IMG/VR virus record: IMGVR_UViG_3300037119_000419
Span: 1 to 26,231 of that record
Reading direction: 5' to 3' (one strand)
DNA: 26,231 nt
Source of the DNA: a virus
Shown here: positions 896 to 21,700 of the stretch, piece after piece
Layout: each line of letters begins with the position of its first letter
Position numbering within the stretch: the first letter of the stretch is position 1
Made by a program: the position numbers and the translations under genes
Notes under the pieces: model-generated
The model's database searches: none
Told to the model about the DNA's origin: nothing
What the model saw: only the letters and a program-made list of their open reading frames with translations

Positions 896-1587
896 TGGCC
901 ACGTTTCTGGAACTTGTTAAGGACCTCGCCAGACAGGACGGCTCGATTTCCGTCACGTCCATCACCTCTGTTGAAGCCCAGACTGGGCGGATCGAGAAGA
1001 TGGTCAACTGGGTGCAGAAAGCCTACAACAATATCCAGAACAGCCGCAGGGATTGGGGCTGGCTGATCGACGAGTTCGAGGTCAGCCTCATTCCCGGCAC
1101 GGCCATCTACACGCCGCTGTCGTTCAACCTCACCCGCTTCTCCAACTGGGTCCGCGACGACTGGGATGGCTACAAGCCCATGAGCCTGCGCGATCCGCTG
1201 ATTGGTCTGGCGGACGAGGGAGAGTTGGACGAGATCGACTACCGCGTATGGCGTGAACGCTATGGCCGTGGCGACCAGTCCTCAGTGTACTGGAACCGTC
1301 CGACTGAATGGGCGGTCACACCCAAGAACGAACTAGCCTTCGGGTCTGTACCCGACACGGCGTTCACGATCCGTGGCCAGTACCAGAAAGGGCCACAGCT
1401 TCTCGTGGCCAACAGCGACATCCCCGAGATGCCCGCCCGGTTTCATGACCTCATCGTGTGGGAGGCGCACAGGATGCTGCTGATCCACGATGGCGCGTAC
1501 CAAGAAAGCCAGTTCCCCACTCAGGAGATGGCCACCCTCCGGCACCAACTGGAGATGGACCAGTTGCCGGAGGTCGTGGTGCCGTGA
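895..1587 (+). CDS. Head-tail adaptor protein (SU10-type)
   Basis: This 230-aa protein begins MATFLELVKDLARQDG and continues with a T-G-R-I-x-K-M-V-N-W-V motif followed by A-Y-N-N-I-Q. This N-terminal signature (FLELV, QTG, LVNWV, A-x-x-x-I-Q) is typical of phage adaptor proteins of the Escherichia phage SU10 type, which form a ring beneath the portal. The length fits the family. The ATG is coupled to the upstream stop by TAATG, with no strong separate Shine-Dalgarno site. The stop overlaps the GTG of the next gene (GTGA). Known for the family: it connects the portal to the tail. Seen here: the N-terminal motif and the genomic position. Confidence 0.8.
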   Translation: MATFLELVKDLARQDGSISVTSITSVEAQTGRIEKMVNWVQKAYNNIQNSRRDWGWLIDEFEVSLIPGTAIYTPLSFNLTRFSNWVRDDWDGYKPMSLRDPLIGLADEGELDEIDYRVWRERYGRGDQSSVYWNRPTEWAVTPKNELAFGSVPDTAFTIRGQYQKGPQLLVANSDIPEMPARFHDLIVWEAHRMLLIHDGAYQESQFPTQEMATLRHQLEMDQLPEVVVP

Positions 1588-3155
1588 CCCAGCAGGTAAA
1601 GTATTTTCCCCTCGGCGGTGGCCTCGACATTGTCACCCCAGCCATTGTTGCTCGCCCCGGAACCGCGAGGGCGGCCACCAATTACGAGAGCGATATGACG
1701 GGTTACCGTCGCATCAGTGGCTATGAGAGGTACGATGGAAAACTCAGTCCTACAGACGCGTACGACGCCGCTTCTGATATTGTGCAGGGAGCCATCGACC
1801 GAGAGGCCGCCCGTCTTGCCATCACCACGGTTCCGGGGTCTGGGCCAATACGCGGTGTCTGGTATTACAATGGAAATACCTACGCTTTCCGAGATAATGA
1901 AGCGGCGACTGCTGGCTGTATGTACGTGGCCACAGCCGGGGGCTGGAGCTTGGTCAGTGCTGTCTTTCCCGCCGGGGGATCGTACGAATTCATAAACTAC
2001 AATTTCATCGGGGCCAGCGCGGGCCTCAAGATGTACGGCATCAACGGCGTCGGTAAGGGTTTCCAGTTCGACGGAGCGACGGTGGTCCTGATCGACACCA
2101 CCATGACGCCTGACGTTCCGATCAAGTTGGCCGCCCACAAGCGCCACCTCTTCTTCGCCTTTGCCGGTGGCTCAGTGCAGCACAGCAGCATCGGCGACCC
2201 GCTGGTCTGGAACCCACTCACTGGCGCTGCCGAGATCGCTGTCGGCGACGAGGTCACCGACCTCATGCCGTCGGCCCCGTCCAATCTGGTCATCATGGCC
2301 AAGAACAGCATCAACGTCCTGTACGGCAACGATGCCACCGACTGGCAGCTTGAGACGCTGACCAACGAAGCTGGCGCTCTGCCGTTCACAGCCGAGAAGA
2401 TCGGCCCGATCATCTACATGGACAACCGTGGTATCCGCGCTCTGGACACCACTCCGGCCTTCGGCAACTTCACCATCGGCACGATGACCCAGACGATTGG
2501 GCCGCTGCTCAAGTCCCGTCTGGCCGCAGGCAACACTCCCGTGGCCAGCATCCGCGTACGTACACGCGACCTGTACCGGGTGTTCTGGGCCGATGGCCTT
2601 GGCGTCAGCGTGTACTTGGGCAAGAAGCAGCCAGAGGTCATGCTGATCGACCTCGGCCTTCCGGTGACCTGCGCCGTGTCGGTGGAAACCACTGATAACA
2701 TTGAGAAAATCTGGTTCGGCTCAACCAACGGCATGGTCTATCAGATGGACAAGGGCCGCAGCTTCGATGGCAATGCCGTGGCCTATTACCTGCGCCTGCC
2801 GTTCAACCACATGGGTGGCCCGAACCTCACCAAGAGGTGGCACAAGGTGGCACTGGAGTATGACGCCGCCTCGACTATCAGTTTGAGCTTGGCCGGGGAG
2901 GTGGACAACGCCGACCCGGAAGAGCCTGTCATCGCTGAGCAGGAACTGCTCGGCTTCGGAGGGGGTGGCTTCTGGGGGTCCGTCAACTGGGATCAGTTCT
3001 ACTGGTCAGCACCAGTTGACGGAGAAGCTGTCGCCTATCTCGACGCGCTGGGCAAGAATATGTCATTGCTGCTGGGAGGGGAACAAGCGGACGAAGAGCC
3101 GCACACGCTACAGGGCATCACCCTGTCGTACACGGTAAGGGGAGCGATCAGATGA
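1584..3155 (+). CDS. Tail hub / head-stabilisation protein (P22 gp10-like)
   Basis: This 523-aa protein probably starts at GTG 1584, which overlaps the adaptor stop and has GGAGG at 1569-1573; the frame is open further upstream, but only as a shadow of the adaptor gene. The sequence is beta-rich, with regularly spaced Gly-Asn and Gly-Asp turns and short repeated strands such as IKLAAHKRHLFFAF and IYMDNRGIRALD. This pattern is typical of propeller-like hub proteins of the P22 gp10 / phage stabilisation group, which follow the adaptor gene in many podoviruses. The stop overlaps the fibre start (ATGA). The family assignment rests on sequence pattern and gene order, so a generic virion structural protein is the fallback. 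Confidence 0.7.
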   Translation: MTQQVKYFPLGGGLDIVTPAIVARPGTARAATNYESDMTGYRRISGYERYDGKLSPTDAYDAASDIVQGAIDREAARLAITTVPGSGPIRGVWYYNGNTYAFRDNEAATAGCMYVATAGGWSLVSAVFPAGGSYEFINYNFIGASAGLKMYGINGVGKGFQFDGATVVLIDTTMTPDVPIKLAAHKRHLFFAFAGGSVQHSSIGDPLVWNPLTGAAEIAVGDEVTDLMPSAPSNLVIMAKNSINVLYGNDATDWQLETLTNEAGALPFTAEKIGPIIYMDNRGIRALDTTPAFGNFTIGTMTQTIGPLLKSRLAAGNTPVASIRVRTRDLYRVFWADGLGVSVYLGKKQPEVMLIDLGLPVTCAVSVETTDNIEKIWFGSTNGMVYQMDKGRSFDGNAVAYYLRLPFNHMGGPNLTKRWHKVALEYDAASTISLSLAGEVDNADPEEPVIAEQELLGFGGGGFWGSVNWDQFYWSAPVDGEAVAYLDALGKNMSLLLGGEQADEEPHTLQGITLSYTVRGAIR

Positions 3156-5194
3156 GCGACTACTTCACCTACACTCCGCTGACCGCCAACACCGTGGCCA
3201 GAGCGGCGGACGTGAATGCGCGCTTCCAAGGCGTGGCCGCAGGCTTCGACCTGTTGCCGCCTCCTCAGTACATCACCGAGGACCGGCTGACCTACGCCAC
3301 GGATACCGGGCTGGCCAACGCCTACATCGCCAATCCGACCATCCCGATCACGGCGTACAACACCGGCCTCCACATCGTGGTTCAGGCCATCAACGCCAAC
3401 ACTGGCGCTTCCACGGTGAACGTCTCTGGTCTGGGCGTGAAGCAGATCGTGCGCGCTGACGGTACACCGTTGCAGGCTGGCGACATCGCTGCGGGTCAGG
3501 TTCTGGACATGACCTACGACGGGGCCGCCTTCCGTTTGGCCATGGCCTTCGCCGACATTTCCCCGGCGGGCGTCGCCGCCAAGATCGCGTTGGCTGGCAA
3601 CATCGTCGTCAACGGCAATCTCGATGCCGACACGATTACCTGCAATGGCGTGACGCTCGACGCTCTGACCACCTTCGGCGTGTCGCTGATCGAGAGCGCG
3701 AACGCGACGGCTGCTCGCGGCCTGCTGGGTCTTGGCACCATGGCCACGGAGAGCGCAGCGTCATACGCGCTGCTGGCCTCGCCGACGTTCACGGGAACTC
3801 CGCTGGCTCCCACTGCTGCGCCGGGCACGAACACCACCCAGTTGGCCACGACAGCTTTTGTCACCGCTGCCGTGACTGCTGCGGGCAGCGTCTCGGATAC
3901 TGCGTACGGCGTCGGCTGGAACGGGGTGACCACCGTCGCTCCATCCAAGAACGCGGTGTACGACCAGATCGAGACCCTTTCTGCGGCCACTACTGCGTCA
4001 CTGGCCACCAAGTCCAATCTCGCTGGAGGTAACGCCTTCACTGGTGCCCAGAGCTTTGCCGGTGCCGTCGCGCTCGATGGCGGGGCGACTGTCCCCGATG
4101 ACGCCTATGGCGCTGGCTGGAATGGGTCGCTTGGCGTGGCCACCAAGAACGCGATCTACGACAAGATCGAAACCGTCATAGCTGGCGGCGGCGTAGCGGA
4201 CGGCGACAAGGGTGACATCACCGTCGCATCCGGTGTGTGGACCCTCGACAATGGCGTGGTCTCGCTGGGCAAGATGTCCAACCTCGCGGCCAACAGCTTC
4301 ATCGGCAACAACACCGGGGGTGCGGCCACGCCGATTGCGCTGACGGTAGCACAGGCCAAGACACTGCTGGCGCTGGAGAATGTCAGCAACCTCTCGCCAG
4401 CTAACCTGCCGATCTCCACGGCCACGCAGACGGCGCTGGACCTGAAGGCCCCGCTGGCCAGCCCTGCGCTGACTGGCGTCCCAACCGCTCCCACGGCTGC
4501 TGACGGCACCAACAGCACCCAGATCGCCAGCACCGGGTTCGTCCAGTCTGTCATCTCGTTCAAGGCCAACCTCGCCAGCCCGACGTTCACCGGCACCCCG
4601 GCTGCGCCGACACCGGCCACGGCTGACGACACGACCAAGATCGCCACGACCGCGTACGTGAAGGCGAACCTGACCAGCTACCTGACCAGCGCCAACGCTG
4701 CGTCCTCGTACCTGACGATTGCCAATGCTTCGGCGACGTACCTGACGCAGGCGTCAGCGACTTCGACCTATGCGCCTCTGGCGTCTCCGGCATTGACTGG
4801 TACACCAACGGCTCCAACGGCTGCTGCGCTGACCAGCACGACGCAGGTGGCCACGACGGCTTTCGTGCAGGGCGAACGCGCGCCTCGTATCCAGAGCGTT
4901 ACCTCTTCGGCGACAGTTACCCCGACGTTCCTCAACGACGAGGTCACGATCACCGCTCAGGCTGCCGGTCTGTCCTTGGCCAATCCGACCGGCACGGCCA
5001 TCGTTGGCCACGGGATCGTGATCCGCATCAAAGACAACGGGACCGCTCGCTCCATTAGCTACGGCTCCCAGTACCGCGCCATCGGCGTGACCCTGCCCAA
5101 CACGACGGTCATCAGCAAGACGCTGTACTTGGGCATGATCTGGAACAGCACCGACAGCAAGTGGGATGTCGTGTCTGTGGCTCAGGAGGCGTAG
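3152..5194 (+). CDS. Tail fibre protein with repeated shaft modules
   Basis: This 680-aa protein starts at ATG 3152, preceded by AAGGGGAG. The first 130 residues look like a virion-attachment domain. The shaft carries four copies of a tail-fibre repeat, LASPTFTGTPxAPTA...TTQxATTAFV, at about residues 207, 434, 473 and 542. It also has two copies of an AYGxGWNG...KNAxYDxIET module at about residues 250 and 317. The last 100 residues form a distinct beta-rich tip that ends in LGMIWNSTDSKWDVVSVAQEA. Trimeric fibres of this kind bind the host surface receptor. Nothing marks a variable repeat, and no reverse transcriptase lies nearby. The next gene follows without a gap. Confidence 0.9.
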   Translation: MSDYFTYTPLTANTVARAADVNARFQGVAAGFDLLPPPQYITEDRLTYATDTGLANAYIANPTIPITAYNTGLHIVVQAINANTGASTVNVSGLGVKQIVRADGTPLQAGDIAAGQVLDMTYDGAAFRLAMAFADISPAGVAAKIALAGNIVVNGNLDADTITCNGVTLDALTTFGVSLIESANATAARGLLGLGTMATESAASYALLASPTFTGTPLAPTAAPGTNTTQLATTAFVTAAVTAAGSVSDTAYGVGWNGVTTVAPSKNAVYDQIETLSAATTASLATKSNLAGGNAFTGAQSFAGAVALDGGATVPDDAYGAGWNGSLGVATKNAIYDKIETVIAGGGVADGDKGDITVASGVWTLDNGVVSLGKMSNLAANSFIGNNTGGAATPIALTVAQAKTLLALENVSNLSPANLPISTATQTALDLKAPLASPALTGVPTAPTAADGTNSTQIASTGFVQSVISFKANLASPTFTGTPAAPTPATADDTTKIATTAYVKANLTSYLTSANAASSYLTIANASATYLTQASATSTYAPLASPALTGTPTAPTAAALTSTTQVATTAFVQGERAPRIQSVTSSATVTPTFLNDEVTITAQAAGLSLANPTGTAIVGHGIVIRIKDNGTARSISYGSQYRAIGVTLPNTTVISKTLYLGMIWNSTDSKWDVVSVAQEA

Positions 5195-8194: not shown

Positions 8195-8215
8195 CCTCGG
8201 TAGGGGAGCGTAACC

Positions 8216-9643
8216 ATGGCCATCAACCCGGCGACAGGTCTGGAAGACCCTGAATACCAGCCGATCACCACCCCACCGGGTGGCCTTTTGGCGTCGGCGG
8301 TTGGTACCCCCATGGAACCGCTCCCCCCGATTGACCCGAATACCTACGAGAACGACGACATCGTCGCTCAGATGAACCGCATCACGTCTCAGGACAGCGA
8401 CTACATGAAGCTGGCCGCGACGAGCGGATTGCAGCAGGCCAACAAGCGGGGCCTTCTCAATTCGTCGATGGCGGTCGGTGCCTCTCAGGCCGAGGCCATC
8501 CGTGCCGCTGCACCGCTGGCTGCCCAGAACTCGCAGTCGATGGCATCTCGCAACCTCGCCCGAGTGCAGGGCTTCTTGGAGCGCGAGAAGCAGCAGGCCC
8601 AGTTTGGCCACGAGATCGGTATGCAGGAGCGGCAGTTGACCGCTGCCGAGGAAGCCCAGCTTCGCGACATCACCGCTCAGGAACAGATGCAGACCCGCCA
8701 GTTGACGGCGGCAGAGCAGGCCCAGCTTCGGGATATTTCCAACAAGCTGGCGATGCAGGGCATCGACATCAACAACCAGCAGCAGATGCAGAATGCCCAG
8801 CTTACGGCGGCTGAGCAGGCACAGCTACGAGACATCCAGAACAAGATCGCCATGCAGGCGACGGACGTGGCCACGCAGTTGGAAATGCAGATGCGCCAAC
8901 TGTCGTCGGCGGACCAGCAGCAGCTACGCGAAATCTCGGCCCGCATGGAAATGCAGGGTATCGACATCGAGAGCCAGCAGTTCCTCCAGCTTCGCGCCCT
9001 CCAGAACGCTCAAGACTTGGCGCAGATGAACATCGACGCCGAGAGCGAACGCCTTGGCCGCCAGCTTACTGCCGCAGAGGAACAGCAAATCCGCGACCTC
9101 GCCAGCCGCGAGAGCTTGCTGGAGATGGAACTGACCAGCCGCGAGATGCTGACGCAGGGCGATTGGCAGCAGCAGATGGAACGGCTGATCCTGTCCGAGG
9201 AGGGGGCCACCGACCGCGCCAACCTCGACGCATCGACCCGCGTCCAGTTGATGGAGCTTGAGAACCTGAGCCAAGAACAGATGGCCACGCTCAACTACTA
9301 TCTCCAGTCCAACCAGATTTACTCGCACAGCCTTGATAGCCTGTACGCCAACAAGGATATGCCAGCCCCTGCGCGTGACTTGGCCATCCAGAATTTCCTC
9401 GCCCTGCGGAACGCGTCGGCCAACCTCCCGGCGCTGATCTTCGGGACCAACCTCAACTGGCCAACCTCGACGCCCGCTCCAGACGGCACGGCACCACCGC
9501 CAACCACGGCCCCGACGCCTACGCCGACGCCTGAGTACACCCCTCCTCCCACGTCGGCGGCTGAGGCCACCGGCCAAGCTATCACGCAGGGTGGCCTGTT
9601 TGGCCTCAAGCAAGCAGTCCAGACTGGGCTAATCGGGCCATGA
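8216..9643 (+). CDS. Coiled-coil virion protein with 11-residue periodicity
   Basis: This 475-aa protein starts at ATG 8216, preceded by GGGGAG at 8203-8208. Residues 139-303 consist of Gln-rich repeats beginning (R/A)QLTAAEQAQLRDI. Three consecutive copies are exactly 33 residues long (161-193, 194-226, 227-259) and are flanked by 22-residue units. These are all multiples of 11, the signature of a hendecad, right-handed coiled coil. A second helical region follows, then a Pro/Thr-rich linker (about residues 418-450) and a short C-terminal segment. The gene opens the ejection cassette and its stop overlaps the GNAT start (ATGA). A virion or internal-core role is inferred. Confidence 0.75.
   Translation: MAINPATGLEDPEYQPITTPPGGLLASAVGTPMEPLPPIDPNTYENDDIVAQMNRITSQDSDYMKLAATSGLQQANKRGLLNSSMAVGASQAEAIRAAAPLAAQNSQSMASRNLARVQGFLEREKQQAQFGHEIGMQERQLTAAEEAQLRDITAQEQMQTRQLTAAEQAQLRDISNKLAMQGIDINNQQQMQNAQLTAAEQAQLRDIQNKIAMQATDVATQLEMQMRQLSSADQQQLREISARMEMQGIDIESQQFLQLRALQNAQDLAQMNIDAESERLGRQLTAAEEQQIRDLASRESLLEMELTSREMLTQGDWQQQMERLILSEEGATDRANLDASTRVQLMELENLSQEQMATLNYYLQSNQIYSHSLDSLYANKDMPAPARDLAIQNFLALRNASANLPALIFGTNLNWPTSTPAPDGTAPPPTTAPTPTPTPEYTPPPTSAAEATGQAITQGGLFGLKQAVQTGLIGP
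8630..9124 (+). repeat. Coding tandem repeats, 66- and 99-bp units
   Basis: The repeats lie inside the coiled-coil virion gene and begin at about 8630, 8696, 8795, 8894, 8993 and 9059. Unit lengths are 66 or 99 bases (22 or 33 codons), so the basic module is 33 bases or 11 codons. The DNA copies have diverged more than the encoded (Q)LTAAEQAQLRDI core, which suggests selection on the protein rather than recent duplication. Confidence 0.8.
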
Positions 9644-10134
9644 TCCGGGCAGCCAAATTCGCCGACACCCCGGCCATCGAACGCCTGCTCCGCGATGCCC
9701 ATCGGCGGTCCAAGTATCTTGGCCGTACGGGGATCAACGACAAGGCGCTCAACGACATGGTCATGGGCCTCATCGCTGGCCAGAACCAGAAGGGTCCGCA
9801 GGCCACGTACATGGTGGTGGCCGAGACGAACGATGGAAGCATCGTCGGCTTCATGGCTGGAAGTCTGAACCGTGCGTACAATTTCCTCGATGGCCTCGTG
9901 GCCAACGACGTGTTCCTCATCAATGAAGGCTCGCCCATGTCCGCTAGGCGGATGGTTGATGGCTATCTCAACTGGGCCAAGAGCAATCCGAAAGTGATTG
10001 AAATTGGGCTGTCGTGGTCTGACGCATTGATCGGTGGCGAGGCAGCAGCCAAGCTGTACAAGATGCTGGGGGCCAAGATGGTCGGCGAGCAATACGAGAT
10101 CAGGCTGGATGTGGAACAGAAGGTGGCAGCATGA
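9640..10134 (+). CDS. GNAT-fold acetyltransferase-like protein (gp13-like position)
   Basis: This 164-aa protein begins MIRAAKFADTPAIERLL, the usual first strand and helix of GNAT enzymes. A middle strand follows, ATYMVVAETNDGSIVGFMAG, and then a C-terminal block with EIGLSW and AAKLYKMLGAKMVGEQYEI, a typical GNAT end. The acetyl-CoA loop (Q/R-x-x-G-x-G/A) is not clearly conserved; the segment SPMSARRMVDGYL occupies its place. Catalysis is therefore uncertain. T7-like phages carry a small protein, gp13, just before the ejection genes, sometimes annotated as an acetyltransferase, and this gene holds the same position. It overlaps both neighbours by four bases. Confidence 0.8.
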   Translation: MIRAAKFADTPAIERLLRDAHRRSKYLGRTGINDKALNDMVMGLIAGQNQKGPQATYMVVAETNDGSIVGFMAGSLNRAYNFLDGLVANDVFLINEGSPMSARRMVDGYLNWAKSNPKVIEIGLSWSDALIGGEAAAKLYKMLGAKMVGEQYEIRLDVEQKVAA

Positions 10135-10595
10135 GCAAGCGTATCCAACTTTCCCAAGGGCTAGACGCCATCGTCGATGACGAGGACTACGAGGTCCTGC
10201 GCCAGTGGCGATGGAGTGTGAGCGAGGTAAAGGGCTATACCCGCTATGCTGTCAGGCAGGACCCAGATACCAGACGCCTTGTGCTGATGCACCGCCAGAT
10301 CATGGAGGCCACAAAGGGCAAGGTCGTTGACCACATTAACGGAGACGGCCTCGACAATCGGCGTGGTAATCTTCGGCTCTGTACGCAGGCGCAAAATTTG
10401 GCCAATCGCGGCAGGCAGAAAAATAAAACTCTATCCCGCTACAAAGGGGTGGTCCCTCATTACAACAGGTGGGCCGCTCGCTGTAACGGTAAGCACGTTG
10501 GTATGTACGCCTGCGAAACGGCAGCCGCTCTTGCCTACGACCGTGCTGCCAAAAACCGCTATGGCGACTACGCTCGCCTGAACTTGGGAGGTTAG
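10131..10595 (+). CDS. HNH homing endonuclease with AP2 DNA-binding domain
   Basis: This 154-aa protein opens with a strand-rich segment (IQLSQGLDAIVDDEDYEVL, WRWSV) typical of AP2-HNH endonucleases. The HNH core is LMHRQIM (about residues 52-58) followed by VVDHINGDGLDNRRGNLRLC (about residues 66-85). The AP2-like end is SRYKGVVPHYNRWAARC...VGMYACETAAALAYDRAA. Such enzymes nick or cut DNA to spread their own gene. The 10380-10450 stretch is visibly AT-richer than its neighbours. The gene is free-standing, coupled by ATGA to the GNAT gene, and does not interrupt another reading frame. Confidence 0.92.
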   Translation: MSKRIQLSQGLDAIVDDEDYEVLRQWRWSVSEVKGYTRYAVRQDPDTRRLVLMHRQIMEATKGKVVDHINGDGLDNRRGNLRLCTQAQNLANRGRQKNKTLSRYKGVVPHYNRWAARCNGKHVGMYACETAAALAYDRAAKNRYGDYARLNLGG

Positions 10596-10596
10596 A

Positions 10597-11514
10597 ATGT
10601 CCAATCCTTTCAAGGCGATAGGAAAAGTTTTTAAAAAAGTAGTAAAAGTCGTCAAGAAGATTGCCCTCCCCGCGCTGATGATCGGCGCTGTCGTACTCAC
10701 TGGAGGGGCCGCCCTTGGCGCGTTGCCTGCACTAGGCACCATCCTTGGAAGTGTCGGAATATCAGGGACGTTGGCCTCCGTCTTAGGGGGCGCGATAAGT
10801 ATGGGCGCTACCGGGGCTGTCCTCGGTGGCGTCATCGGAGCAGCTACTGGACAGGGCTTCATGAAGGGGGCCACGACTGGCTTCCTTGGTGGTGCGCTGG
10901 CTGGCGGTGTCGGCGGCGGCCTTGGAATGATTGGTGCCAACGGCATCTTCGGTGGCGGCGCGGCGGCGGCTGGCGCCACTGGCCACGCTCTGGGCGGCGC
11001 AACGACGGCGGCCACTGGCGGCGCTGGAAGTGCGGCTGGCGGTGTATTCGCTGGCGGGATGGCTGGTGCCAGCACGGCTGGCCAAGTCGGTATCGGTCTG
11101 GCCAACGGGACCATTGCTCTGCCCACGGCAACAGCGGCAGCAGCGGCTGCGCCAACGGCGGCGGCTGGCGGCGGCCTGCTTGGAACGATTGGAAAGATCG
11201 GCCCAACGCTTCTCACGGTTGGTGGCCAAGTCCTGTCCGGGTTCGCGCAGGGCAAGGCGGCAGAGGCTCAGGCCGAAGCCGAGGCCGAGGCGGACAAGGC
11301 CGACTTTGACCGCATCTCGTTCAACTACGGCTTCAAGAATATCTACAAGGGCAAGGACGACAACATCCCGACGAGCCAAGAGCAGTTCTACCAGTACGCT
11401 CCGCTCGACCACGCCTATCCGGCTGGGCTTCTGGGGAACATGGGTCAGCAGCAGCCATCGGCTGGCCGGTACCAGATCATCAATGGTGAAGTCGTCTTCG
11501 TGGGAGGGGCATAA
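10597..11514 (+). CDS. Gly/Ala-rich ejection protein (gp14-like)
   Basis: This 305-aa protein starts at ATG 10597, preceded by GGGAGG at 10586-10591. The first 25 residues form a strongly basic amphipathic helix (FKKVVKVVKKIALPALMIGA). About 180 residues follow of Gly/Ala-rich, weakly hydrophobic sequence with GxxxG-like spacing. A charged AEAQAEAEAEADKAD helix comes next, and then a compact C-terminus with NYGFKNIYKGKDD. Such proteins can insert into membranes. In the T7 layout the protein after gp13 is gp14, which forms the outer-membrane pore of the ejection channel. The assignment rests on order and composition, not on a recognised family. Confidence 0.7.
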   Translation: MSNPFKAIGKVFKKVVKVVKKIALPALMIGAVVLTGGAALGALPALGTILGSVGISGTLASVLGGAISMGATGAVLGGVIGAATGQGFMKGATTGFLGGALAGGVGGGLGMIGANGIFGGGAAAAGATGHALGGATTAATGGAGSAAGGVFAGGMAGASTAGQVGIGLANGTIALPTATAAAAAAPTAAAGGGLLGTIGKIGPTLLTVGGQVLSGFAQGKAAEAQAEAEAEADKADFDRISFNYGFKNIYKGKDDNIPTSQEQFYQYAPLDHAYPAGLLGNMGQQQPSAGRYQIINGEVVFVGGA

Positions 11515-12179
11515 TGGAAGCCGCTGGTATTCTTGGAGGTGGAGCCAACCGTGGCTCCGGCACTGCACCCACCGGCTTTCTACCCGGTCAGGAGGACGAG
11601 GCCGAAGAGCAGCCCAACGTCTCCCCCGAGGAGCAGCAGGAGTATGACACCTTCGTCCAGAACGCGATGGAGATCATGTACACCTCCGAGGGCAAGGTGC
11701 AGGACGAGGTCATGTCCCGCCTGTCCACTGGCAACAAGCCGATTGATACGCTGGCCCAGACCACGGTGTGGCTGGTCATGCTGATCGAGCAGGACGCCAA
11801 GCGCAACGGGATGCAGATCAGCAACGACGTGTTGATCCACGCTGGACGCGAGGTCATGGAGCAGTTGATCGAGATCGCCGAGGCTCTGGGTCTGCACGAA
11901 TTCAAGGAGGCGGAAATCCAAGGCGCTTGGTATCAGGCGCTGGATATGTACCGCGAGGCCAACACGGGAGAGGGTGGCCGCATCGACGAGACCGAGGCCA
12001 GCACCGCGTTCCAGTTGCTCGACGAGGCAGCCAAGGAAGGCCGTGCCGACGATGTCATCCCCGGCTTCGAGGCTGAAGCCGAGCGCGGTTTGGCCATGGC
12101 CCAGATGGATCAGAATGATCCTGACGCCGAGGCCCCGGAAGAGAAAACCCTGAACCAGAAGGGAGCGCCGAATGGCTAA
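11514..12179 (+). CDS. Helical acidic virion protein of the ejection cassette
   Basis: This 221-aa protein has a one-base overlap with the upstream stop (TAATG) and GGGAGGGG at 11502-11509. After a Gly-rich N-terminus, residues about 35-150 are helical: YDTFVQNAMEIMYT, LAQTTVWLVMLIEQDAKRNG and VLIHAGREVMEQLIEIAEAL. The tail is acidic and disordered. I recognise the general pattern from virion proteins encoded upstream of very large ejection genes in other podoviruses, but cannot name a family. Its stop region overlaps the next start by eight bases. Confidence 0.7.
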   Translation: MEAAGILGGGANRGSGTAPTGFLPGQEDEAEEQPNVSPEEQQEYDTFVQNAMEIMYTSEGKVQDEVMSRLSTGNKPIDTLAQTTVWLVMLIEQDAKRNGMQISNDVLIHAGREVMEQLIEIAEALGLHEFKEAEIQGAWYQALDMYREANTGEGGRIDETEASTAFQLLDEAAKEGRADDVIPGFEAEAERGLAMAQMDQNDPDAEAPEEKTLNQKGAPNG

Positions 12180-12747
12180 TATGGGTCTTCTTGGTGCCCT
12201 CGGTGGGCTTGGCCAAGGTCTCCAGACAGTGGGCCGCGACATCTATGCGCGGCGTGAGCGAGCCTTGGAAGAGGCGCGCAAGGAAGCCGAGTACCAGCGC
12301 CGTCTGGCTGACGTTCGTCAGGACAAGCAGGAAGCGCGGCAGTTCGACATCGACAAGACCGCTGCCATTCAAGGACGCCAAGACGCCCGCTTCCTAGCCG
12401 GTGAACAAGGCAAGGACCGCCGCCTCTTACAGACACAGACGCATCAGGCGGCCCGCGATGAAACCAAGTTCAGCCGGGACAAGGAGCTAATCAAACTCCG
12501 CAACGTGCTGGACTCGGAAAAGGAAGCGAAGGGTGACACCCGCCGCGCCCAACTCAAGAAAGAGGCGAACAGGGACGATGTGGCCACCGTGCAATACGGC
12601 AAGCCCAATGCGGAGGGTTACGCGGAGGTCATCTTCCTTCTCAAGGATGGATCGACGCGCAGAACTGGCATCCCGGTGTACAAGCCCAAACTTGACTATG
12701 CACCGAAGCAGGATGAAGACGAGGACGAAGACCAAGACACCTTGTAA
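12172..12747 (+). CDS. Charged coiled-coil protein upstream of the giant gene
   Basis: This 191-aa protein begins MANMGLLGALGGLGQGL, a Gly/Leu-rich amphipathic start. A long Arg/Glu/Gln-rich helix follows (about residues 20-135) with coiled-coil character. A small beta segment (VATVQYGKPN...AEVIFLLKDGSTRRTGIPVY) comes next, and then a very acidic tail. It overlaps the previous gene by eight bases and ends nine bases before the giant gene's GTG. The N-terminus resembles other phage proteins that dock in the internal core. A scaffold or partner of the giant protein is inferred; no family is recognised. Confidence 0.7.
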   Translation: MANMGLLGALGGLGQGLQTVGRDIYARRERALEEARKEAEYQRRLADVRQDKQEARQFDIDKTAAIQGRQDARFLAGEQGKDRRLLQTQTHQAARDETKFSRDKELIKLRNVLDSEKEAKGDTRRAQLKKEANRDDVATVQYGKPNAEGYAEVIFLLKDGSTRRTGIPVYKPKLDYAPKQDEDEDEDQDTL

Positions 12748-12756
12748 GGGATAGCT

Positions 12757-15700
12757 GTGGCCACGAACTTCGACCTCCTTCGCCGCAGCAGCCTGTTCCC
12801 GTCAGGAGGCGGGGGCCTGCTTGGCCTCGGAGATCGGCCACTCACCCCCGAAGAAGAAGAGGAATTGCTGCGGCAGCAGATGCTGGCAGCCAACGATCCT
12901 CTCGCGCCACTGCCCGACGTGCGTCCGGAAGAGCCGGTAGCCACGGAAGACAAGCCATTTCTCCCGCCTGTCGAGGAAGACAAGCCTCTGGTGGACCCGC
13001 TTGCGCCGCTCCCTGACGATGAGCTTCTGCCGGTTGAGGCAGTGGCCACAAACACCAAGGGAAAGAAGCGCCCGGCGCAAGAAACTGTCGTTGAGGACAA
13101 GCCGCTCATAGCCCCTGAAGAGGAAGAGCCGTCGCTGTTCATGCCGCTTGAAGGTGTGATGCAGGAAATCGGAAAGCGCGGCGAGCTTCCTGAGAACCTG
13201 CGGGCCGCTGGTATTGCCCGCACAAACACCGCGTACCAGCGCGCCGTGGCCGCTCAGGAAGAGGCCGACAAGGTGGTCGATGCCGAGCGCATTGACGTGG
13301 CCAGCCCGCTTCGCAGCAAGTTCGATAGCCAAGTCGCTGGCTACATCGCTGGAGCGTGGAAGGAACACCAAGGCGACCCAACCAAGGTCGCAGCCTTCAC
13401 CAAGAAGCTGGCCGAAAGCTATGGCACGAACTGGGGCTACACCCCGGAGAGCATGAAAGAGACGCTGGAATTCATCAAGGATAACCCGCGTTCTCTGGAG
13501 GCTGGTATCTCCTTCAAGGGTCAGAAACTTACACCAGACCAACTGGCACAGGCCAAAGAGGAATTGGCCGCCGCCACCACCGATGGCCAGATTGATGTCC
13601 AGAGGCTGACCCGCCCGTACACCGACCAGCCGGTCGAGGCGCTGGTTGAGGGTCTGCGCGGTACGGCCACGGCCACGGTTGGCGGCATGATTTCATCCGC
13701 ACCGGAAGCGATGATCCAGTCGGTCGAGCGTTTGACTGGGAACCCATCGCTGGGGGCCGCGATACGTGATGGCATCGAGCCGGTGGCCAAGAACATCAGG
13801 CTTGCTGGGCGGGCGCTTGGCGCAGGCGGCGAGGCTTGGCGCGAGCGGGCCAATCCCGGCTACAAGGAAGGCACAAACGAGTATTACGCCTTCCAGACGG
13901 TCACTGCGTTTGCCGAGTTGGGCGCGGCATTCTCCGCAGCGTCAGCCACCAAAAGCCCGAACGTCGGTGCGGCCATCATCGCCGCCCGCGTGTTCGGCGA
14001 ACAGAACAACGACAGTCTCGAACGTGGACGTACGCCACAGCAGGCATTCGTCGATGGGACAGCCATGGCCGTGGCGGAATTCCTGCCTGAGCGGATGGTC
14101 GTCAAGCAGTTGCTGGGAACCACCGGCAGCAAGGCTTTGGACATCGTCAAGGGCATGGGTGGGGAGAGCCTTCAGGAAATCACCACCGAGATTATTACCA
14201 TGGGCTACGAGGCCGGGATTTTCGGTGATGATGTTACCGTCAAGCAGGCCCTGCAAAGGATGTTCGACGCCGGGATTATCGGCGCTGGCGCGGGTGGTGG
14301 TGTGGCCGCGACGACAGGTGGTGCGCGCAGCGCGGCAGAGACCAAGACCGCAGTCGCCTTGCGTGACCGTATCGCCACTTGGGCCAATCAGCGGCTGGCC
14401 ATGGGCGCGATCAATGACGGCGACATCAACGCCACTAGCGAGCAGGTGGCCAACGCATTCAATCCGTCGCGAGTAGCAGGCGGGGTAGTTCAGCAGAGCG
14501 GCGTATCCATGGACGAGCTTCGCAAGTCGAAGCTGCCAGCCGTGCCCCGTGTCCTTGAAGGTGAGCGGCCATACCGCCCGGTGCTGGTCAAGCCGACACC
14601 TGAGCCGGTCAACCGCGATGGCCAGCCTGAGAAATTCGCACTGCCAAAGGGGCGGGTGACTTCCAAGTTTGGCCCACGCCAGACCTTCCGCACCGCTAAC
14701 GGCCAGATGGCCAGCAGCAATCACGCAGGCGTGGACATTGGACTTCCGTCTGGTGCAGCCGCTCCGGCTGGTGCGTCGGGCGTGGTCGTGGCCGCTGGCC
14801 CACGCGGCGGCTACGGCAATCAGGTCGTCATCCAACACGCTGACGGGACCACCTCTTCGTACAGCCACCTCAGCCGGATTGGCGTGAAGGTCGGACAGGA
14901 GATTGCCCAAGGCCAGAGCGTCGGCAAGGTCGGCAAGACCGGCAATGCCACTGGCCCTCACCTCCACATCGAACGGCGTGATCGTCAGGGACGCGCGGTC
15001 AATCCCGAGACCGGCGCAATCGTGGCCACGTCACGCAATGCCGAGACCAAGGAGTGGGAGGACGACACCGAGTACACCGAAGACCAGACCGAGGTGGACA
15101 ACTTCTACGACGACATGATCGACCAGCAGGAGTTGGACGACACATACACCGAGGCGACCGGCCAGCAGTGGGACCCTCAGGACTTTGAGCCGACCGAAAG
15201 CGAAGAGGTTGAGCCTGCCGTTGCCCGAGGTGATGCTCAGCCCGCACAGGCCGAGACCCCCGCTCCCCGCACAGGAGCCGCGCTAGACGCGCTTGAGAGC
15301 GAAGAGGTACCCGAGCCTACCCGCGTACAGGAAAACGTCTCTACGAGGCTCACAGAGGCCAAGGATCGCAATCCCGCTGCACAGGCAATGGCAGAGGAAC
15401 GCCGCTCTGGTGGCGGCAACCGCCTGTTCGACATTCAGGAAGAGGCCGACTACTCCCAGCCGCTCCCCAACGAAGAGACGATCTTCGGTTCGGATGATAG
15501 CGGCGTGGGCACCGGCGAGGTGGTCGGCTTCATCAACACCCAGACCAAACAGAGCCGAGCAATCGGAGAGCCACCTGCTGCTGATGTGACGCTTCCCCCA
15601 TCGACAGCAGAGCCGACGCAGGAGGTCCAGCCCACCACGCCTGCGTCGGCACCTATCGAGACCACCGTTCCCGAGACACAGGAGTTCGGTGGCCTGAGCG

Positions 15701-18700
15701 TTGAAGACCGCACGTCGCTGTACGAAGCCCTGCCCGCACCGCCGCAGACCGCGAGCGAGGATGTGAAGATGGGGCGTGGTGATGGTCAGGCAGTGGCGCT
15801 TGGATTGGCTGAGCCTCAGGACTTGAGCGCCAAGCCCAAGGCTTATGTTACCGCCTATAACGTGGGATTGCAGGAGGGGTCGAAGGCTCTGGCTAGTGCA
15901 GCCGGGGAGAGTTTTGTGTCCACTGCTGGGCCAGCATTGGCCACAACGCAGGAAATTCCAGAAGGTTCCGCAGAAATTATTTCGGAGCCTGCCGCACCAA
16001 CCACCCCTGTGGATGGCCTTAGTGTAGATGGGGCGGCACCTTCGGGTATCGCGGAATTCATGGACCAGCAGGCGACGGCGTTGGATGCTGCGCCCGTTCC
16101 CGTCAGCAACGACCGTCGCATGGAGGTCGCTGCCACCGTCGAGAAGATCGAAGACAAGATGTTCGACTTCGAGACTGACGACGCTCCCAAGTCCAAGGTC
16201 AAGGCGTACCTCAAGGGCTTGGTCAAGAAGGGCGTGATGGAGCAGGCCGACCTCGACGCCATGGATTACCTGTTCAAGGACAGGGACATGGGCGTGGAGG
16301 ACATCACCTCCGAGGTCAGGGGCGCTCTGGAAATGTGGGCTGAGCGTGAGCTTGGCGGTGCAGCGCCTGTGGCCAGAGACCGCCGCACCAGCGGGCCGAC
16401 CAAGATCGAGGACGCGGTTCCCGGTTACGCCAAGGTGGCCAAGCATCTCACTCCAGAGGAGCGGGCACGGGTCAAGCGTTCGGCAGCACAGAAGCTGGTC
16501 GCGCTGTGGGATAAACTCCCGACGCCTACCGAGATGGCGGCTGTGGCCATCAGCGCCCGCGACGCTCGTGGCTGGTACGAGGCCAGCGCCAAGGCATTGG
16601 TCGAGGTGTTCGGCCACAAGGACGCTACTCGGTTCGCCGCCCTGCTCGCGGCCACGTCGCCGCAGAACAGCGTCAGGCTGAACCTCTACAACGCCCTCAA
16701 AATCTGGACCGGCTGGAACCGCGCTGGCCGACCGACCGACCGCAAGTCTATCGTCAAGATCATGGGCGACAACGTGGCCGGGGATAAGGGTCTTGGCTCT
16801 GTCCTCAATGCGTGGATCAACAACACCGTCACGGCGCTCAGCGACCCTGTCGAACAGCTTGTGCTGTCGGGACCCAAGGTCAACAGCTTCTTCCACAACC
16901 TGATCGGCGAGGTGGACGAGGTCACTAACGACGCATGGATGGCGGCGTTCGCTGGCGTGGACCCGACTTTCATCAAGGGCACGACGGTTGGCAAGAGGAA
17001 GGCTACCAAGTCGGTGGGCTACATGGCCTACGCCGCCCGCGTTCGGAAGGCTGCCGAGGTGGCCAGCAAGCGGACGGGCGACAACTGGACGCCTGCCGAA
17101 ATCCAAGAGACCGTATGGTCATGGGCCAAGACGGTGTACGAGATGCGGGACAAGGCGGGTGAGAACCGTACCGTCCAGCAGTTGCTTGATGCCGGTGCCG
17201 TAACAACTGCCGACATTGCCAACACCGAGGACTTCGCGGTCCTCTTCACGAACAACTTGTTCGCCAACATTCTAGGGGAGGCAGGTTATGGCCAGCCGAG
17301 CGGAATTCGTCAGCGCGGTGGAGCAGATGCTTCAGTCGCAGGAGGCGTACGAAGCGTCACTGACGCAGAAGGAACAGGATTTACTGAACGAGATTTCACC
17401 CGTAACCTCCAGCGAGCAGGAGGGCGGCTCGAACGTGTCCGCCAAGAGCGACGAGGAGGAAAGCTAAGTGAGCGCAGAAAGCAGGAAGGCGCTGGAAGCC
17501 AGCAAGCCGAAGCCAGAGGACTACCCGAGCGAGGACCAGTTTCTCGAAGCGAAGAGCCGGTGGCTATCGACAGTCGGAAGAAACTTGGCTTTGACAAGCC
17601 GCTCCCCGGCCAGCCCCAAGCGGTAGAGGTACCGGGCTACGGCAAGGTAGCCTTCGGTCCACTCCCGGTCGCCCAGCAGGCGGCGCGGGATTACATGGCC
17701 AGCATTGGCCAGACCTACACGCCAACCAAGGTCGCGCCGTCTGTCAACGTCGAGCGCGCCACTCGCATCGCCACTGCCTTCGATACCCTTGAGCATAACC
17801 CTCAGGACCCCGATGTGCAGGCGGCGTACAAGGCCATGGTTGACGAGACCATTGCCCAGTGGAAGGCCATCGAGGCCACCGGCCTGAAGGTGGAGTTCAT
17901 CGACTTCGCCAAGACCGGCGACCCCTATGCGGCCACTCCTCGCCTGATGCAGATCGACGTGGCTGAGAACAACCATATGTGGGTGTTCAAGACTGACGAC
18001 GGCTTCGGCTCTGACGAGACCATCGACGTGTCGGATAACCCGCTGCTGGCGCTGACCGACATCTACATCGGTGGCCACCAGCTTCGAGCCAATGATGTCT
18101 TCAGGATTGTCCACGACTACTTCGGCCATGTGAAGGATGGCCACGGCTTCAGGGCCAAAGGCGAAGAGGGTGCATGGCAGGCGCACTCGCAAATGTACTC
18201 GCCGCTCGCGCGCCGTGCGATGACCACCGAGACGAGGGGCCAGAATAGCTGGGTCAACTATGGCCCGAACGGTGAAACAAACCGGGATGCCAACAGCGCG
18301 GAGACGGTGTACGCTCCGCAGAAGGTCGGGCTGCTGCCGCAGTGGGCCGTGGAGGAGGGTGCGCTACAAGCGCCAGCATTCAGAGAGAGGGTTGAAGATG
18401 GCACAGAGCAAAGGACCGAGCGCGGAGGACGTGAAGCTGATGACCAAGATGGCCAAGGCTCACCCGAACTGGAGCGGCCTCCAGTCAACGAAGACGGAAC
18501 CGTCACCCTCCAGCACTACACCACCGCCGAAGGATTAACCGAGACCGACCCCACCCTGTGGGGCCAGACGAAGATCGCCTTCACCCGCGAGGAGCGGGCG
18601 TACATGATGCAGGCCCCGCCGCGTACCTACTTCGGTATCGCTACTGGCCAGCCCGGAGGATACAAGCAGGAATTCCAAGGCCGCACCGAGGTCGAGGCCC

Positions 18701-21700
18701 GCCTGCCGATGGACCGCCTGTACGATGTGGGCGCTGACCCGGATAACCTGTGGGTCCAAGGCAAGGCGCACATCGGCGAGCGCAATATCAAGGACGCTGG
18801 CCACGCTGGCTACTGGCACAAGAACCCCGAGCTTGGTCTGGTGGCGGTCGTCTTCGAGCCAGTGCAGGTCAAGGCCACGGCGAAGGCCAAGGACAAGCGG
18901 CAGACCGCGTACGAGCGCATCGGCTCCAAGCGCGCATTCCGTGCCGACATTCTCCAGACGGTGCTGGACGAGTTGGGCAGGATGGGAATTGCCGAGGGGC
19001 GCAGCGACCTCAAACTCAGCGTCATCTCCGACTTTGGCGGACGTACCTATGATGGCCGCTACTACTATCCCCAGACGTGGGACGACCATCCCCTGATTGA
19101 GATCGTGGCTCTTAGCCACAAGGGCGCTCGCATCACCGCACGTCACGAGGCCATCCACTGGATGCGTGACCAAGGGATCATCTCTCGGACGGAGTGGCCG
19201 TACCTCGCCAAGTGGGCCAAGAACAACGCGAACCTGATGGCGTGGGCCAAGGCCAACTACCCCAGCAAGGATGGCTTCACCCTCGAAGACCAGATCGAGG
19301 AGGCCGTGGCCGAAGGCTTTGCTCGCTGGAACGGTGGTGACCCAGCACTGGTGACCGCCAAGGACAGTATCGTGGCCACGGTATTCGCCCGCATTCGTGA
19401 GATCATTCGCTCCATTCGCGAGGCATTCGGCGCTGCCGGTATTACCCGTGGTGAGTTGAACGAGGCTGCCCGCCTGATGGCCGCCATTCGCGGTGGAGAT
19501 CAGGTCCGCAAGTACGACGCAGCCAAGCAGCCCAGTGGCTTTGGCCGTCGCAGCCCGTACCTCTCCAGCATCAGCCGGGATATGCTGGCTGGCCGCATCA
19601 CCCCCGAGCAGGCGCAGATGCTGCGGAATAACCCGAAACCCAAGGACCAAGCCGGATGGCATGGTACCAAGGCCGAGGACATTGATAAATTCTCGCTCGA
19701 CTTCATGGGCACCGGAGAGGGGGCGCAGGCTTTCGGCTGGGGGCTGTACTTCGCCCAGAAGCAGGCGGTTGCTGATTGGTACCGCCGCAAGCTGACCATG
19801 AACCAGAACCTGCCGACGGTGCGCGCAGTCAAGGTTGGTGGCCAGCCGCTGTCCGAGTGGATCATGGATCGCTTTGGCTCTGGCCACGGCACTGCCGCAG
19901 TCGAGGTGGCCGACCGTGTCTTCGAGTACCTGACCACCAACCAGCCATACAACGGCTGGCTCGACGCGCTTCAGGTGCAGTTCGAGAAGGACATGGTCGA
20001 GTACATGGCCGACGCCGAGGCCAATGAAGATGCCGCAGAGATCGAGGCTCTGGCCAACGAGGCCCAGAAGGTCGAGATGATCTTCGATAACCTTCGCATG
20101 AAGAAGGTCGAGTTGGACACCGGGGCCACGAAGGGTGCGCTGTACAAGGTCGAGGTTCCCGAGAACGAGGACCTGCTGGACCTTGACGCTCCGCTCAGCA
20201 ACCAATCGCCCAAGATCACCAAGGCGCTGGAGGCCATCGAAGCCGAGGTCAACATCGAAGACTACACCGAGATGGATTTTTGGGACCTCACTGGGCAGGA
20301 GTTGCAGAACGTCCTCAAGGTGGCCGTCTATCAGGACGCGCTGCCGATTACCGGCGATGCCATGGAGACCGCCGTCGAGAACGGTGAGGCACCAAAGGCA
20401 GTGAGCCTTTACCTCCGTGACAAGGGTGTGGTTGGTTCACGCTACCTTGACCGTGACAGCCGTGGCCAGCCAGAGAATGAGGCCACGCGCAACTTCGTGA
20501 TCTTCGATGACGGCGTCGTGGAAATCCGCGCCAAGACGGTGACGGGCCGTGGCTACAGGGACCGCGTCGTTCGTGCGCCGCAGGCTGGCCCGCTGAGCGA
20601 CCCGACCAAGCCGAACCCCGGCATCTTCCGCCGCATCCATGACCAGACCATGTCCTTCCTGACCATGCTTGGCAGCGCCCATGGCAAGGGCGACTGGGAT
20701 GCAGCCGACAGCTTCATCGACGCCTTCCGCCGCAAGGTGACCCAGCGGTACCAGCAAGTCATCAAGACGCAGCAGCGCGTGGCCGCCGAGCAGGGGCTGG
20801 ACCGCCTGCCGCCTGAGCAGAACGTGATGGAGAACATCACGGCTGACGAGCGTGGCTACAAGCTCCAGCACCTGACCGATAACATGATCCGCCCGATGGC
20901 CGAGGAAATGCAGGCTCGCGGTGTGAGCATGGACGACCTTGGCCTGTACCTCTACGCCCGCCACGCACCAGCACGTAATGCCCGCATCGCCGCCATCAAT
21001 CCGGAGTTCCGCGCACCGGATAAACCGGGGTCGGGCATGACCAACGTGGACGCGGCCAACATCATGGCCCAGTTCGTGGCCGAGGGTAAGGACGCGGACC
21101 TAGCAGCAGTGGCCGTGTACATCGACCGCATGATCGAGATGGCCCAGCAGGAGCGCCTACAGTCTGGCCTCCTGACGCAGGATGCCCTCGACGCAGGCTT
21201 CCAGCCACAGGACCACTACGTCCCTCTCCGTGGCAACGAGAACATCGAACCCGAGATGGAGATGACGTTCCCCATTTCGTCGCGCAAGGGTGGTGGCTTC
21301 TCAGTGGCAGGCGGCGAAGGCCACCGGATGTATGGCCGCGAGAGCAGGGCCAACCTCGAAGAGATCGTCGGCTACACCATCACGCAGGCGCAGGAAGCAA
21401 TCGACAGGTCCTACCGTAACAAGGTGGACACGGTCATGCTCAATATGTTCAGGGCTGTGCCTGACCCCAACTTCGTGTCCATCGACAGGGTCAAGCGGGT
21501 ACCTGTCTGGAACAAGGCCAAGGGTCAGGTCGAGTACCAGATGCAGACCCGCATGAACGACCCGCTGGAGCAGCAGCGCACCATCTTCGTGAAGGATGGC
21601 GACACCATCCACAAGATGACCTTCAACGACCGCAACCCTTCGGCCATGCGCTTCGTCAAGGCAGCCAAGAACCTCGGTGTCCAAGAGTTGAACCGTGGCC

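Follow-up and report, generated by a model that had tools for sequence, protein, structure and literature searches.

A cysteine-free hendecad rod protein in podophage-type gene cassettes changes length almost only in steps of 11 residues and may be a pilot or ejection protein

The linear virus record IMGVR_UViG_3300037119_000419, whose full 26,231 bases are the window of this study, carries on its + strand (8216-9643) an open reading frame for a glutamine-rich protein built of 11-residue units (hendecads), and it raises the question of what a phage with podophage-type tail genes might do with such a rod. The repeat, a protein family around it, the quantized length of its members, a two-faced helix pattern and a recurrent gene slot are solid. 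We give about even chances to a podophage pilot or ejection protein that would form a tube for DNA in the manner of the pilot protein H of phiX174, where tube, lumen lining and ejection are each what we infer. In broader terms, the rod protein is probably one of those that lead the viral DNA into the cell. The gene and its protein are laid out as follows.

8200-8208, + strand: Shine-Dalgarno-like stretch GTAGGGGAG, read directly, preceding the ATG at 8216
8216-9643, + strand: hendecad rod protein, 475 amino acids without cysteine
8216-8350, + strand: N-tail, amino acids 1-45, Pro-rich, mostly of low model confidence
8351-8569, + strand: conserved N-block, amino acids 46-118, carrying RGLLNSSMAVGA; the N anchor is Asn82
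8573-9196, + strand: hendecad region, about amino acids 120-327 (tabulated and shuffled over amino acids 120-354)
8633-8671, + strand: core 1, amino acids 140-152, one mismatch
8699-8737, + strand: core 2, amino acids 162-174, exact
8798-8836, + strand: core 3, amino acids 195-207, exact
8897-8935, + strand: core 4, amino acids 228-240, five mismatches
9062-9100, + strand: core 5, amino acids 283-295, four mismatches
9248-9448, + strand: conserved C-block, amino acids 345-411, with a motif of the SLYANKDMP..R type, C anchor Asn379 and two model helices
9449-9640, + strand: C-tail, amino acids 412-475, Pro/Thr-rich, of low model confidence

The 11-residue repeat of the window protein is real and far beyond chance. 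Over amino acids 120-354, the lag-11, lag-22 and lag-33 values each lie above the highest similarity that 2000 shuffles reach at any lag from 2 to 40, and the lag-7 value is slightly negative. Gln stands at register 0 through 13 units in succession (amino acids 126-258), and register 4 is hydrophobic through 18 (amino acids 130-317). A sequence-only reading of this DNA had placed Gln-rich repeats at 8630-9124 (amino acids 139-303) and given them about 165 residues and 25 nm; the repeat is indeed there, and its measure was somewhat too short, the pattern extending over about amino acids 120-327, or about 30 nm at 0.15 nm per residue. Repeat lengths in multiples of 11, also proposed, are borne out by core spacings of 22, 33, 33 and 55, the last of which goes beyond the 22 or 33 then allowed. 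The core itself is not constant as claimed; scored against QLTAAEQAQLRDI, it is exact in only two of five copies. The two anchors lie 297 amino acids apart, which is 27 x 11. At the DNA level, Tandem Repeats Finder reports no tandem array in the hendecad region, which suggests that the repeat units are old. An AlphaFold2 model of the monomer (mean predicted local distance difference test score, pLDDT, 73) places helices at 84-194, 199-327, 335-378 and 384-409, in keeping with the helical structure that the sequence-only reading had predicted; the break at 195-198 has low model confidence.

As a whole, the window protein found no relative in PHROGs, cultured phages (tblastn), the PDB or viral contigs, and in Pfam only a single match under the cut-off (E 0.026). 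After these look-ups had failed, a search with the N-block (RGLLNSSMAVGA) alone opened the family. N-block profiles collected 33 loci in a first round, 32, largely from the same contigs, in a second, and 127 in a third, of which 80 were kept. Ten family loci lie in GTDB genomes, including those of Aminobacter, Fulvimarina, three Azospirillum and Prosthecobacter, all Gram-negative lineages. Removal of duplicates left 91 proteins (numbered here with the prefix L), among them the window's own copy (L001), a 24-amino-acid fragment (L138) and several cut at contig ends; the N-block is present in all 91 by construction. Most of these proteins end in the C-block (I..N..L....R plus the last helix), and their middle is rich in Gln and Asn. 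In the first set, similarity at lag 11 reaches a z of at least 2 in 27 of 32 rows, and at lag 7 in two. Cultured members, in which the matched genes are annotated "hypothetical protein", occur in Pseudoalteromonas phage vB_Pun_Y3, in 27 Vibrio phage records and, weakly (E 0.1), in Stenotrophomonas phage StenR_269. Phage searches with members L013, L107 and L133 and with a typed C-block returned no match. In PHROGs, none of 15 members was matched and 11 others gave at most weak matches to families of unknown function (best E 0.0038, L011). In Pfam and PHROGs the family has no convincing match, its members showing accessory or weak ones. DUF4214 domains stand N- or C-terminal of the rod in L105, L107, L110 and L112, and were found in 6 of 44 scanned members; the C-terminal end of another protein (L027:2705-4792) matches the Hint domain under the Pfam cut-off.

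Family sequences describe two conserved end blocks joined by a hendecad stretch in which insertions and deletions are, by this comparison, tolerated almost only as whole units of 11. We took as anchor distance the separation between the Asn of NSSMAVG and the Asn of the C-block. In a first alignment, 23 of 27 anchor distances were exact multiples of 11 (77-594) and the remaining four left a remainder of 4. A C-block model made from 22 of those sequences placed the C anchor in other proteins, and the 55 of 91 that scored at least 20 bits fell into 42 clusters, each with one representative; the other 36, in which the C-block scored less than 20 or the anchor could not be placed, did not enter the counts, and several of these low-scoring proteins show distances not divisible by 11, measured between unreliable anchors. 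Repeat number in relatives, which the sequence-only reading had put forward as a possible refuter, moves in steps of 11: 37 of the 42 representatives leave no remainder, the five exceptions being 4, 4, 7, 8 and 10. Outside the training sequences the count is 19 of 22 (nominal p about 2e-17 from a binomial with a fixed class, the representatives being treated as independent). Exact multiples span 66-594 amino acids, and an exception at 898 is the longest distance. Two cultured phages checked later gave 66 and 209, both divisible by 11.

The N-tail, used as a control, shows no clear 11-residue step (R 0.24, vs 0.85 for anchor distance in the 41 full-length representatives); C-tail length falls between the two (R 0.40, p 0.0015), an effect that we ascribe to the many members that stop right after the C-block. 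On one tree of the end blocks, length changed at least 32 times, and for length modulo 11 the minimum is 5 changes. The rarity of other insertions and deletions, which tandem duplication would not remove, points to selection on angular register. Odd and even unit numbers are about equally frequent (19 vs 17 of 36), so a hairpin with two equally extended arms is not suggested. One family protein (L090:9902-12841) has 803 amino acids, or 73 units, between anchors, of which the C anchor is low-scoring (9.3 bits); its very regular repeats suggest a recent expansion.

These distances also bear on the proposal that the rod is matched to the periplasm. Since relatives range from 66 amino acids in a Vibrio phage to 594 in L146, a contig binned as a Gammaproteobacterium and identical to L131 in length and coordinates, envelope width alone does not set rod length, and the match is not supported as stated. 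Of the two roles offered with it, a fixed periplasmic spacer is argued against by the roughly tenfold variation in length and by minimal members that are almost rodless. A channel stays plausible, by way of the gene slot, cysteine depletion, the two-stripe helix with its Gln/Asn face, and a short motif in common with phiX174 H.

With the register set by the N anchor, 32 members were long enough for a comparison of helix faces. Their hydrophobic residues fall in two arcs, registers 2, 6 and 10 and registers 0, 4 and 8. As a measure of consistency between members, the first arc surpasses both polar faces in hydrophobicity in all 32, and the second exceeds the narrow face in 32 of 32 and the wide face in 31. 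Registers 3 and 7, which make up the narrow polar face, are 1% hydrophobic on average and richest in Gln/Asn (38%); Gln, Asn and Arg together are enriched on this face relative to the opposite one in 27 of the 32, and small residues show the reverse in 29. Mean spectra of both Gln/Asn and hydrophobic residues peak at 98.2 degrees, a period of 11/3, and not at the heptad angle of 102.9 degrees, so the expectation of a non-heptad helix was sound. The right-handed coiled coil that was also predicted is not supported in the classical form with a single a-d-e-h core, since the hydrophobic residues form two separate stripes and the register tables contain no single hydrophobic face at a, d/e and h. 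The same kind of table yields a single arc for each of the coiled coils taken as controls, P22 gp26 and T7 gp17. Judged by residue distribution, this is a hendecad helix with two hydrophobic stripes and a Gln/Asn-rich face, with some Asp and Arg, between them, and not the usual one-core coiled coil. Tetrabrachion-type coiled coils and NadA3 undecads share the 11-residue period, and tetrabrachion, like NadA3, has one core. In NadA3, positions a and h are described as buried in that core (PMC6191539), in contrast to the two stripes found here. By a hand estimate from two harmonics, the stripes would lie about 135 degrees apart, which would suit a ring of about eight identical helices, with a wide error.

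On the pilot or ejection reading, insertions and deletions of 11 would keep the angular register between the end blocks while the rod changes length. Several helices would lie side by side, each contacting a neighbor through each of its stripes, and would form an alpha-helical tube whose lumen is lined by the polar amide face, as in phiX174 H. The rod protein would exit the virion together with the remaining ejection proteins and would extend or line the path of the DNA across the envelope; each extra hendecad would make the tube about 1.6 nm longer and keep the end blocks in phase.

The H tube is reported as a 170-Angstrom decamer with three hendecads, in which 18 of 23 lumen residues are Asn, Gln or Arg and hendecads give way to heptads after a kink (PMC7354561). 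Functional analogy prompted the comparison with H, for which four mutually related H proteins were used. A profile comparison, by itself not significant, pointed to H 205-224 against the family C-block. An hhalign score of 25.6 over 20 columns (E 0.0005 for the pair, probability 32%) compares with at most 14.1 in 200 column permutations. The C-block model gave domain scores of 11.6 to H of WA45, 10.2 to that of Mimer, 7.9 to that of phiX174 and 5.8 to that of G4, with full-sequence scores of 13.8 (WA45), 9.5 (phiX174) and 7.7 (G4). Among 1869 background open reading frames only two exceed a domain score of 5.8, both of them broken-off pieces of family genes (L116, L138), and in a like-for-like control the 9.5 bits of phiX174 H were reached by 1 of 5000 shuffles. 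In reverse, a model of H 196-245 found 4 of 91 family proteins vs 0 of 1869 background frames at 8 bits, and 10 vs 4 at 5 bits, where the ten family matches cover the C anchor. Since H combines 11/3 with 7/2 helices, a fixed-angle test on phiX174 H carried no information. The likeness to H is thus, at the level of sequence, a supported local motif and not proof of descent.

Family and H have in common the lack of cysteine (in all four H proteins), Gln-rich hendecads and an I..NT.L[ST] motif after the hendecads, and the amide-lined lumen described for H (PMC7354561) would have its counterpart in the family's conserved Gln/Asn-rich face if that face points into a lumen; they differ in the shift of H to heptads, in the extent of the likeness and in the single-stranded DNA phage from which H comes. 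The Mimer pilot protein H (L158:217-1290) has an 11-residue insertion in its hendecads relative to phiX174, G4 and WA45. Tentatively, and on balance as something unlikely, the family could be the double-stranded DNA counterpart, perhaps a distant relative, of microvirus H, a self-assembling, alpha-helical, amide-lined DNA tube whose length evolves by whole hendecads with the end blocks kept in phase. If true, the same tube principle would operate in phages of two viral realms, and tube length would be a freely evolving trait. The wider interest lies in whether short-tailed phages can alter the length of their conduits without constraint, and whether DNA is generally passed through helical tubes lined with amides.

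Structure searches added one lead. The minimal member L068 (152 amino acids) is modeled with C-terminal helices at 67-105 and 111-145 (pLDDT in the block up to 98; predicted template modeling score, pTM, 0.49). Foldseek gave neither this model nor that of the window protein a match in the PDB with E < 0.1, and among predicted viral structures three matches at E < 0.001, all to proteins of uncultured phages. The C-block hairpin of L068 aligned with T7 gp14 (7ey7_A) by VIA-align at Z 8.1 over 90 residues and 3.8 Angstrom, values that common arrangements of helices also reach. T7 gp14 is described as two antiparallel helices, present in six copies within the open nozzle (PMC11784390). The modeled likeness is a lead only.

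The gene context of the rod protein is that of a podophage virion cassette. Homolog counts below refer to 92 other loci, namely 90 family loci with vB_Pun_Y3 and StenR_269, some of them near-duplicates and many truncated.

895-1587, + strand: podophage tail adaptor/tube protein, phrog_10775; homolog upstream in 72 of 92
1458-3155, + strand: nozzle/gp12-like tail protein (PHROG label amidase); homolog upstream in 77 of 92
3152-5194, + strand: tail fiber
9640-10134, + strand: GNAT-type acetyltransferase, phrog_1249; homolog in 17 of 92
10131-10595: HNH endonuclease, between the acetyltransferase and the Gly-rich gene
10597-11514, + strand: Gly-rich hydrophobic protein; downstream match in 53 of 92, leaving out nine matches upstream of the family gene
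11514-12179, + strand: cassette gene, cysteine-free in 21 of 21 examined homologs
12172-12747, + strand: small cassette protein without a family match
12757-23487, + strand: 3576-amino-acid polyvalent protein with M23 peptidase and LPD38, without cysteine

Adaptor, nozzle-like and fiber genes come in this order, followed by small genes and an endolysin and then by the rod gene, which stands at the head of the ejection cassette, a slot that needles use too. Across the family, adaptor- and nozzle-type podophage tail genes precede the family gene, and a long-tail gene context was not found. The Gly-rich protein may be an outer-membrane pore or ejection protein. In vB_Pun_Y3 the family gene is followed by an annotated acetyltransferase, a Gly-rich protein, two more genes and a protein of 3421 amino acids. 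The cassette of Vibrio phage 219E41.2 ends with matches to phrog_2534 ("released from the phage upon host infection") and phrog_770 ("DNA transfer protein"). This context suggests that the rod protein is part of the virion.

Cysteine was counted in stop-to-stop neighbor frames and recounted from the start codon best fitting the length of the window protein. Family proteins are cysteine-free in 89 of 91 cases, the exceptions being L027 (two Cys) and the N-tail of L106 (three Cys); among neighbors the count is 1 of 74 for the nozzle, 13 of 72 for the adaptor, 35 of 43 for the Gly-rich protein and 21 of 21 for the 11514 gene. Cysteine is likewise absent from P22 gp7, gp20 and gp16, DEV gp71-73, phiX174 H and T7 gp15 and gp16; T7 gp14 contains a single residue. 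Podophage ejection proteins (T7 gp14-16, P22 gp7/16/20, DEV gp71-73, Sf6 gp12) resemble the family in neighborhood, predicted helices and lack of cysteine, and Sf6 gp12 is reported as a decamer with a 25-Angstrom channel (PMC4755594). They differ in that no sequence relation appears to the three compared (T7 gp14, DEV gp72 and gp73, as single sequences), and in a lag-11 z of at most 1.5 in T7 gp14-16, P22 gp7/20/16 and DEV gp71-73. Giant proteins without cysteine, as at 12757-23487, also occur in DEV (vRNAP, 3398 amino acids) and in vB_Pun_Y3 (the 3421-amino-acid protein).

Several observations weigh against the pilot or ejection reading. Presence in the virion is argued from gene context, as is ejection, and by hhalign the family showed no similarity to the single sequences of DEV gp72/gp73, T7 gp13/gp14 or P22 gp26/gp14. 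The monomer model of the window protein has a pTM of 0.29 and cannot give an oligomer. The arcs were taken from the same family table in which they were compared, which is not an independent test, and spectra of individual members peak at various angles. Second-harmonic hydrophobicity was dropped as proof of two stripes, P22 gp26 having a strong one too, and the register arcs were used instead. Single members are noisy, with a lag-11 z that reaches 2 in most rows of the first set and not in every row; lag 7 roughly matches or surpasses lag 11 in two cultured members (3.3 vs 3.5 in vB_Pun_Y3, 2.4 vs 1.7 in StenR_269), and the distance of 150 in StenR_269, with the anchor placed by eye, leaves a remainder of 7. 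Anchor distance varies from 66 to 898 amino acids and the shortest members are almost hendecad-free, which means that what the family conserves as its function is not a tube of one fixed length. As for H, the likeness extends over only about 20 residues; phiX174 H received no positive domain score from a wider C-block model, the full-sequence score of Mimer H is -0.9 after bias correction, and models of the whole tube (H 151-271) or of full H found 2 and 4 of 1869 background frames and no family protein at 8 bits. Cysteine is also absent from the P22 gp26 needle, a StenR_269 capsid protein and adaptor and a Vibrio nozzle; lack of cysteine therefore cannot separate an ejection protein from a needle.

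The main rival is such a needle or tail plug: a rod in the form of a trimeric coiled coil would close off the nozzle and be the first part to touch the cell, its stem drifting in length by hendecads. P22 gp26 shares rod shape and freedom from cysteine with the family and occupies an identical slot, after the nozzle gene gp10 and before gp14-gp7-gp20-gp16; freedom of length would suit a stem. In the predicted viral structures, the name of the top match refers to an intramolecular chaperone domain, and such domains sit on trimeric fibers, yet Pfam matches of 44 members at E 0.001 include no S74 or chaperone domain. Reports of the N4 tail plug gp53, encoded beside the ejection cassette (PMC12633501), and of undecads in a trimeric adhesin stalk (PMC6191539) add to its case. 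What tells against it is the helix itself, which has two hydrophobic stripes in the family vs one in gp26 and T7 gp17; gp26 is moreover built of heptads and has no profile similarity to the family (hhalign probability 0.1%). We regard a needle as unlikely.

Distinctly less probable is an internal rod or tape-measure-like scaffold, with helices around the portal barrel or lining the tail that would set assembly geometry and never serve as a conduit. Siphophage tape measure proteins are reported to hold variable numbers of 11-residue units marked by Trp or Phe (Belcaid 2011, PMC3271669), and in the interior of DEV a helical ejection protein encircles the portal (PMC10925440). In the family, an [FW]-x10 run of at least four occurs in 11 of 91 proteins vs 1 of 4550 shuffles; the window protein, however, has no such run, and the full seven-marker pattern (the published Pattern 1) occurs in 1 of 91. 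The podophage-type gene set implies no long tail to measure. Variable 11-residue rods are thus already known from siphophage tape measure proteins, as is one solved hendecad DNA tube, that of phiX174 H (PMC7354561), and in the reports cited these two are the nearest documented relatives in kind. Among the best literature matches to hendecad or 11-residue repeats combined with phage terms, no podophage protein of this kind appeared.

Very improbable is a flexible helical linker in which 11-mers merely keep a helix continuous between the end blocks. Tandem duplication alone does yield multiples of 11 without selection, and the shortest members keep little beyond the end blocks. Insertions and deletions of other lengths would be expected as well, however, and among deeply diverged proteins only 5 of 42 representatives carry one; the helix faces are conserved in register across the family.

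Some features of the neighboring genes stand apart from the rod. The acetyltransferase gene sits inside the virion cassette. None of the 92 other loci holds a match to the HNH endonuclease at E 1e-4, so this gene may be a recent mobile insertion in the virion gene block. Homologs of the protein at 1458-3155 carry the annotations stabilization protein, tip attachment protein and, in Vibrio phage D65, amidase; given these differing annotations and the nozzle slot, the amidase label is doubtful. Within the tail fiber gene, a 30-base tandem repeat of 2.3 copies lies at 4679-4747.

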